Assembly (NCBI GenBank): GCA_903958395.1
Contig: CAJBSZ010000139.1
Span: 1-33,338 of the forward strand
Reading direction: 5' to 3'
From: an uncultured bacterium
Lineage (GTDB): Bacteria > Verrucomicrobiota > Kiritimatiellia > CAIKKV01 > CAITUY01
DNA: 33,338 bases
In this document: positions 31,285 to 33,245 of the stretch, one piece after another
Layout of the letters: each line of letters starts with the position of its first letter
Numbering within the stretch: position 1 is the stretch's first letter
Notes under the pieces: generated by a model
What the model saw: the letters and a program-made list of their open reading frames with translations, nothing else
Databases searched by the model: none
Told to the model about the DNA's origin: nothing
Program-made: the position numbers and the translations under genes

Positions 31285-31317
31285 CAGTCAGGAGGGCGTT
31301 TGATAACTCCGCGCGCC

Positions 31318-32265
31318 ATGAAAAACGAGAACCTCACCCTTTTTGCGCCTGCCAAGATCAATTTAACGCTGGAGGTTTTTGGAAAGCGGGCGGACGGATA
31401 TCACGACCTCCGGAGCCTCGTTGTTCCGGTATCCCTGTATGACGTTTTGACCCTGACGCCTCTGGACGCGGATATTGAGGTGTCCTGTGAAGTGGTCGGA
31501 TTGCCGGGTGAGAATCTTCCGATGCTGCCTGCTCCCCGGGATAATCTGGCGGTGCGTGCGGCCCACTTGCTCCGCGAGGTTACAGGGTGTTGCGGGGGTG
31601 CCCGAATCCATATTCGCAAGGAAATTCCGATTGGCGGGGGAATGGGCGGGGGAAGCGCGGATGCGGCGGCGGCGCTGACGGGGTTGAACCGTCTGTGGGG
31701 GACGGGATTGTCGATCGAGGCTCTGATGGAACTGGGCGCTCGTTTGGGGAGTGATATCCCGGCGATGGTGTATGGAAAGGCCGTCTGTATGGAGGGGCGG
31801 GGGGAGAAAATCACCCCTGTGCCCACTTGCTGGACGGCGGGAACGGAGTGGTGGATTGTCGTCGTCAACCCCGGATTCAACGTCCCCACGGGAGATATTT
31901 ACAGGCGATTTAGATCGGGGTTGACTTCGAATGAAGAAACCTTTATCAATGCACGCTTTGCGCTTGAAAGGGGCGACCGGAAACTGGCTTGTGCCAGCTT
32001 GGTGAATTCCCTTGAGGCGCCGGTTTACGATAAATATCCGCTCCTGGCGAGTGTGGCCGGAAGGCTGAAATCGGCGGGTGCGGACGGTGTTTTGTTGTCG
32101 GGCAGCGGAGCCTCGGTGTTTGCAGTGGCCGAGAATCACGGACAGGCCCTGGTGATCGAGGCGCGAATGAAGCGCGAAAACGGTTCGTGGTTGTGGTCAC
32201 GAGTCGCGCAAATATTGCCCGATGGTGTAATGGTAGCACACGGCCCTTTGGAGGCTAGAGTCTAG
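31318..32265 (+). CDS. ispE: 4-diphosphocytidyl-2-C-methyl-D-erythritol kinase
   Basis: 'LFAPAKINLTLEVFGKRADGYHDLRSLVVPVSLYD', GHMP motif 'PIGGGMGGGSADAAAALTGLNRLWG', 'LGSDIPAMVYGKAVCMEGRGEKI', 'VLLSGSGASVFAVAE'. The 3' end overlaps tRNA-Gln. Confidence 0.93.
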   Translation: MKNENLTLFAPAKINLTLEVFGKRADGYHDLRSLVVPVSLYDVLTLTPLDADIEVSCEVVGLPGENLPMLPAPRDNLAVRAAHLLREVTGCCGGARIHIRKEIPIGGGMGGGSADAAAALTGLNRLWGTGLSIEALMELGARLGSDIPAMVYGKAVCMEGRGEKITPVPTCWTAGTEWWIVVVNPGFNVPTGDIYRRFRSGLTSNEETFINARFALERGDRKLACASLVNSLEAPVYDKYPLLASVAGRLKSAGADGVLLSGSGASVFAVAENHGQALVIEARMKRENGSWLWSRVAQILPDGVMVAHGPLEARV

Positions 32266-32289
32266 GTTCGAGTCCTAGTCGGGCAACCA
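32216..32289 (+). tRNA. tRNA-Gln (anticodon TTG)
   Basis: Acceptor TGCCCGA/TCGGGCA with the U1-A72 pair typical of tRNA-Gln; D loop AATGGTA; anticodon loop CTTTGGA; T arm CTAGG-TTCGAGT-CCTAG; discriminator A and encoded CCA. Confidence 0.92.
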
Positions 32290-32297
32290 TCTGGCAG

Positions 32298-33245
32298 ATG
32301 ATGAATACGAGTAACATGAAGATTTTTACAGGAACAGCTCACCCGAAGTTGGCGCAGAGTATTGCCGACAGCCTGGGTCTTCCCCTGGGTAAGGCGGATG
32401 TCAAGCGTTTCCCGGATGGGGAGACCTGGGTGAAGATCCTGGAAAATGTCCGGGGCAAGGATGTGTTCGTCGTGCAGCCGACGTGCCACCCTCCGAACGA
32501 GAACATCATGGAGCTGCTGATCATGATTGATGCGCTGCGGCGCGCCTCGGCGGCTCGCATCACGGCGGTATTGCCCTTCTACGGGTATGCGCGGCAGGAT
32601 CGCAAGGATCAACCCCGTGTTCCCATTACAGCCAAACTGGTGGCCAATCTCCTGGTGGCATCCGGAACGAACCGGTTGCTGACCATGGATCTGCATGCCC
32701 AGCAGTTGCAGGGATTCTTTGACATTCCGGTAGATCATCTCTATGCCGCCCCGGTGCTGGGCAAGTATTTGATTGATAAGAAACTCACGAATCTGGTTGT
32801 GGTCTCGCCGGACACGGGTGGATTAAAAATGGCGCACGCCTACTCGGAGATGCTGAAGGCGGGCCTGGCGATTGTGGCCAAGCAGCGCAAAGGCCCGAGC
32901 GAGGTGGAAGCCATGACCATGGTGGGTGATGTCAAGGGGTGCAACTGCGTTCTGGTCGATGATCTGGCCACTACTGCCGGGACGTTGACCTCGGCGGCGC
33001 GCATTCTCAAGGAGAATGGGGCTGAAAATATTTTTGCGGCGGTGTCGCATGCCGTGTTGACGGATGTGGGCATCGAGCGGCTGAAGGCCTCCCCCATCAG
33101 GGAGCTGGTGACGACCGATACGGTTCCCCTGACGGTGAAGACCAACGGGTATCCGGTGACGGTGCTTCCGGTGGCCGGATTGCTGGGGGAAGCCATTATC
33201 CGCATTCATGACAACCAGTCGGTCTCATCATTGTTTAAACTTTAG
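32298..33245 (+). CDS. prs: Ribose-phosphate pyrophosphokinase (PRPP synthase)
   Basis: 'MKIFTGTAHPKLAQSIADSLGLPLGKADVKRFPDGETWVKILENVRGKDVFVVQPTCHPPNENIMELLIMIDALRRASAARITAVLPFYGYARQDRKDQPRVPITAKLVANLL', 'DLHAQQLQGFFDIPVDHLYA', 'VLVDDLATTAGTL'. Confidence 0.97.
   Translation: MMNTSNMKIFTGTAHPKLAQSIADSLGLPLGKADVKRFPDGETWVKILENVRGKDVFVVQPTCHPPNENIMELLIMIDALRRASAARITAVLPFYGYARQDRKDQPRVPITAKLVANLLVASGTNRLLTMDLHAQQLQGFFDIPVDHLYAAPVLGKYLIDKKLTNLVVVSPDTGGLKMAHAYSEMLKAGLAIVAKQRKGPSEVEAMTMVGDVKGCNCVLVDDLATTAGTLTSAARILKENGAENIFAAVSHAVLTDVGIERLKASPIRELVTTDTVPLTVKTNGYPVTVLPVAGLLGEAIIRIHDNQSVSSLFKL

Follow-up and report, generated by a model that had tools for sequence, protein, structure and literature searches.

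The locus described here raises the question of how the end of an enzyme gene can also be the body of a tRNA, and whether one RNA can supply both products. It lies in the window, that is, the whole 33,338-nucleotide stretch of Kiritimatiellia DNA that we analysed, with the following features:

31318..32265, + strand: ispE (4-diphosphocytidyl-2-C-methyl-D-erythritol kinase); open reading frame, Pfam GHMP kinase, NCBIfam TIGR00154 and PRK14608 above cut-off
between 32215 and 32216, + strand: predicted RNase P cleavage point, placed from the tRNA 5′ end; a cut here removes the ispE stop codon
32216..32289, + strand: tRNA-Gln(UUG), CCA encoded; ARAGORN and Rfam RF00005; anticodon at 32248-32250
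32216..32265, + strand: ispE/tRNA overlap of 50 nt; IspE tail PDGVMVAHGPLEARV plus stop, conserved in relatives
32263..32265, + strand: ispE stop codon TAG; tRNA nucleotides 48-50, 5′ strand of the T stem (Rfam structure line)
32298..33245, + strand: prs (ribose-phosphate diphosphokinase), 3′ of the tRNA; likely start ATG 32298 or 32316

The ispE reading frame runs into tRNA-Gln(UUG) with no earlier stop, and this overlap is kept in relatives. An earlier note on this DNA had claimed a same-strand overlap of the two genes. The overlap is real, with the open reading frame extending to the TAG at 32263-32265 and the tRNA recognised by both ARAGORN and Rfam. The claimed tRNA-encoded tail of IspE was likewise confirmed, and TTG at 32215-32217 is the first full codon touching the tRNA, as proposed. 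The acceptor, D arm, anticodon arm, variable loop and T stem all contribute to the coding of PDGVMVAHGPLEARV. The note had located the stop in the "variable loop/T stem"; its position stands, and the structural assignment is narrowed to the T stem.

IspE and tRNA-Gln are both well-defined genes

The identity of IspE is supported by an equivalog match to TIGR00154 of 210.7 bits against a cut-off of 138.7. The PRK14608 match stops at residue 294 of the 315 in the window IspE, so the tRNA-coded tail lies past the usual end of the family model. Elsewhere in the phylum, at 20 ispE loci of other classes that all lack a tRNA nearby, the protein often stops no more than a few residues from the position matching the tRNA start. 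This indicates that the tRNA abuts a complete enzyme. At the other end of the gene, an AGGAGG at 31290 lies 4 nt before TTG 31300 and 22 nt before ATG 31318; because of this spacing, TTG 31300 may be the true start instead of ATG 31318.

The tRNA-Gln folds into a cloverleaf with a TTG anticodon. ARAGORN places it at 32216-32289 and Rfam RF00005 at 32216-32286 (59.3 bits), with the CCA encoded at 32287-32289. Whole-genome searches returned one match for ispE and two tRNA-Gln genes, TTG (at ispE) and CTG, in a draft of 559 contigs that is 93.5% complete and may lack a further copy of ispE or of the UUG tRNA-Gln. Both IspE and the UUG tRNA-Gln function probably rest on this one stretch.

The overlap is a class-wide architecture

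The search covered 77 near genomes and 288 of the class, and at each locus we traced the ispE frame to its stop. The earlier note had suggested comparing the ispE-tRNA-Gln spacing in relatives, and this comparison revealed the overlap in 89 of the 98 class loci with ispE directly upstream of tRNA-Gln(UUG), spread over 28 of the 29 families with such loci. This frequency is explained neither by chance nor by sequencing error. The note itself had named an upstream error hiding an earlier ispE stop as grounds for rejecting its claim, and the origin of the window in a 559-contig draft could speak for such an artefact. However, the same junction recurs in dozens of independent assemblies from 28 families. 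An assembly or sequencing error is therefore refuted by the relatives, and we put its probability at practically nil.

The overlap is hence not a single-genome oddity. Beyond what the note had described, it is class-wide, uses all three reading frames of the tRNA, and in some loci engulfs the tRNA whole. The class loci are distributed as follows:

Frame A, TAG at tRNA nucleotide 50: 23 loci
Frame A, stop at tRNA nucleotide 44: 28 loci (TGA, except TAG in one with an extra D-loop base)
Frame A, stop only after the whole tRNA: 13 loci
Frame B, stop at tRNA nucleotide 15: 20 loci (TAA, once TAG)
Frame C, TGA at tRNA nucleotide 10: 4 loci
Frame C, TGA at tRNA nucleotide 37: 1 locus

In family f15 (L063-L067, L132, L137, L140, L143, L144, L151, L152), the entire tRNA-Gln including its CCA lies inside the ispE open reading frame, which stops 3-30 nt past the tRNA, just before the prs start. 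The extra D-loop base is found in the tRNA-Gln of locus L010 (genome G008), where it puts ispE into another frame within the tRNA and so yields another tail and another stop (TAG, nucleotide 44).

The two genes are separated at nine of the 98 loci, eight in family f7 (gaps of 43-128 nt) and one in f34 (L112, 3 nt). Most members of f7 (L023, L026, L028-L030, L091, L106, L122) lack a full encoded CCA on tRNA-Gln, whereas it is encoded in most class members other than f7. Six more ispE loci of the class have no adjoining tRNA, as is the case at all 20 ispE loci from other classes. In 25 class genomes, tRNA-Gln has no recognisable ispE in front, and here spacing is mostly ordinary: the nearest same-strand open reading frame (90 codons or more) ends mostly 60-390 nt upstream, once 11 nt upstream, or is absent from the stretch. 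The overlap thus goes with ispE rather than with the tRNA generally. No ispE match at E ≤ 1e-20 was obtained in 140 of the 288 class genomes, which have either lost the MEP pathway or carry an IspE too divergent for detection.

Stop codons behind the tRNA point to translation through it

Where the tRNA offers no in-phase stop (f15 and one f49 locus), the placement of the next stop is informative. All 12 distinct loci have a stop in the ispE phase at most 48 nt past the tRNA, at several different positions and with different codons. Of the two remaining phases of these loci, 8 of 24 have a stop this close (Fisher p about 2e-4), as does the ispE phase in 55 of 110 other loci (Fisher p about 5e-4); both tests ignore relatedness, and a single genus supplies 11 of the 12 loci. 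The trailing stops are thus specific to the ispE phase, which is our strongest sign that ribosomes probably keep to the ispE frame while translating across the tRNA. For stops within the tRNA, a phylogenetically controlled comparison of retention between frame-A and unlinked tRNAs, with too few independent pairs, gave no demonstrable excess.

Proposed mechanism: translation before tRNA maturation

Several points are established: the overlap, its conservation across the class, one detected copy each of ispE and the UUG tRNA-Gln, the presence of rescue genes, and a stop placement that fits translation through the tRNA. From the sequence evidence, we consider it rather probable that ispE, having no stop of its own, borrows the first in-frame stop in or behind the tRNA, and that the RNA serves as message first and as tRNA precursor last. 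In this model, ispE, tRNA-Gln and prs would form one transcript. While its tRNA part is unprocessed, ribosomes would translate through it and terminate at the T-stem TAG, giving IspE with a tail of about 16 residues that is probably dispensable. Once ribosomes are absent, the tRNA would fold and RNase P would cut between 32215 and 32216, releasing tRNA-Gln and a stopless ispE message. Each transcript would therefore be contested between ribosomes and RNase P.

Since a cut in front of the tRNA takes the stop codon away from ispE, one RNA can be a full message or a source of tRNA, not both. The geometry of the overlap thus upholds the reasoning of the earlier note that no single transcript yields a mature tRNA as well as an ispE mRNA with its stop. 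Ribosomes left on a cut message would stall at its 3′ end and be rescued mainly by tmRNA/SmpB. The note had proposed looking for rescue genes, and the window's genome indeed contains a tmRNA (tag ANTEYALAA) and SmpB. A further gene, on the minus strand at L214:1255-1794, codes for a short protein that combines a GGQ motif and an RF-1 domain with a basic C-terminus; it scores below the ArfB cut-off and is a possible second ribosome-rescue factor.

We found no terminator-like site between ispE and prs and, in a consensus scan that other promoter types could escape, no sigma-70-like promoter near the tRNA; the tRNA may have a promoter that departs from this consensus. Synonymous-site conservation was not raised in the last 20 ispE codons just upstream of the tRNA. 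Single-strand folding of the ispE/tRNA junction gave no informative signal (z 0.62).

These signals bear on the alternative that a separate promoter within ispE drives the tRNA, with or without prs, while ispE messages run through the tRNA and escape processing. The spacers of 60-390 nt that mostly precede the tRNA in class relatives without an upstream ispE suggest that independent promoters probably exist in the class. Against separate transcripts stand the missing sigma-70-like promoter and the unremarkable codon conservation. In addition, RNase P would still recognise a long ispE transcript that crosses the tRNA. Overall, we regard this alternative as distinctly unlikely. Mitochondria offer another model, in which RNase P would free an ispE message ending in U and polyadenylation would complete a UAA stop. 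The window fits: the base before the tRNA is a T at codon position 1, so that U plus AA would give UAA, and a T occupies this site in 37 of 63 frame-A loci. However, the base is C or A in the remaining 26 of 63, and frames B and C are incompatible with such completion. As a general rule across the class, poly(A)-completed UAA is therefore rejected. It could at best be family-specific, and we judge it very improbable.

Persistence of the overlap

One account of why the overlap has lasted is a neutral ratchet, in which a deletion in an ancestor joined tRNA-Gln directly to the final ispE codon and left no spare codon that could become a stop. The arrangement would then have no regulatory role, and losses to RNase P would merely be tolerated. 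This account concerns persistence and is compatible with the proposed mechanism. In its favour, the junction codon in frame A is NTG, a triplet that is not a stop whatever its first base, and later codons are fixed by the tRNA, providing a neutral reason for the overlap to persist. The spacing is also constant, with six full codons between the last conserved Trp and the tRNA start in 57/64 frame-A and 13/20 frame-B loci. Moreover, the IspE tails of the three frames are unrelated (LPDGVMVAHGPLEARV, TCPVV, IVR and similar), so no particular tail sequence is required. Escapes from the overlap came with inserted sequence (f7, gaps of 43-128 nt) or a 3-nt gap (L112). On the other side, an IspE tree counts 11 frame-state changes versus 2 changes between overlap and separation, numbers that are approximate because this quick tree has many weak forks. 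So few escapes over a deep divergence, despite indels at the junction, weigh against purely neutral retention, albeit only suggestively. Both parts of this reading together seem to us to have slightly less than an even chance.

Alternatively, the overlap could be a selected switch, in which ribosome traffic on ispE would delay maturation of tRNA-Gln and RNase P cutting would destroy ispE messages; on the sequence evidence, we hold this to be rather doubtful. By analogy with the non-stop control of arfA, such a switch might link the amount of IspE to translation capacity and to the supply of tRNA-Gln, an extension as tentative as the coupling of isoprenoid and tRNA output raised in the earlier note. 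The retention of the overlap through frame changes across the class and the presence of rescue genes are in line with selection, as is the arfA precedent, in which a nuclease cut inside an open reading frame yields a non-stop message under tmRNA control (PMC3989581; PMC8012679). However, the neutral account explains retention without any benefit. We also know of nothing that links IspE functionally to glutamine decoding, which counts against a switch. That the whole class keeps a selected arrangement, with an essential tRNA forming the end of an essential enzyme's gene and ribosomes competing with RNase P, appears unlikely to us. If true, each tRNA-Gln(UUG) made would cost one ispE message, and the locus would be a natural message/tRNA switch with built-in non-stop rescue.

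Comparison with known systems

Protein genes in mitochondria abut or overlap tRNAs, and excision of the tRNA cuts the message. This tRNA punctuation is the nearest structural precedent: at our locus, too, a protein gene meets a tRNA whose excision would cut the ispE message. However, the ispE stop lies inside the tRNA, and completion by poly(A) is impossible in many loci. Mixed mRNA-tRNA operons also exist in E. coli, where in tRNA-tufB and secG-leuU a tRNA is cut from a transcript shared with protein genes. Unlike ispE, the coding regions of these operons share no bases with the tRNA.

The nearest mechanistic precedent is E. coli arfA, where RNase III cleavage inside the open reading frame removes the stop and creates a non-stop mRNA controlled by tmRNA (PMC3989581; PMC8012679). 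As would be the case for ispE, a nuclease recognises a structure in the 3′ part of the frame, the stop is lost and a non-stop message is left for tmRNA. ispE differs from arfA in that its structure is an essential tRNA that functions in its own right, its nuclease would be RNase P and its product is a metabolic enzyme. At ispE, control by rescue is hypothetical, and the cut site is predicted from the tRNA 5′ end.

The ispE overlap would belong with mRNA/tRNA overlaps that produce non-stop messages. We found no published description of an ispE/tRNA-Gln overlap in the open-access literature searched. If the proposed mechanism is right, the UUG-reading tRNA-Gln of a large bacterial class costs one enzyme message per transcript. 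The locus would then be a natural system in which to measure how ribosomes compete with RNase P, how much work falls to tmRNA, and the way in which genes are locked into overlaps. In practical terms, annotation pipelines that forbid overlaps of coding sequences and tRNAs may truncate or drop ispE in genomes of this class.

The gene order itself is more widespread: ispE-(tRNA-Gln)-prs neighbourhoods occur in other phyla, for example in Pseudomonas, with the order seen in the window. In E. coli K-12, ispE adjoins prs with no tRNA between them.
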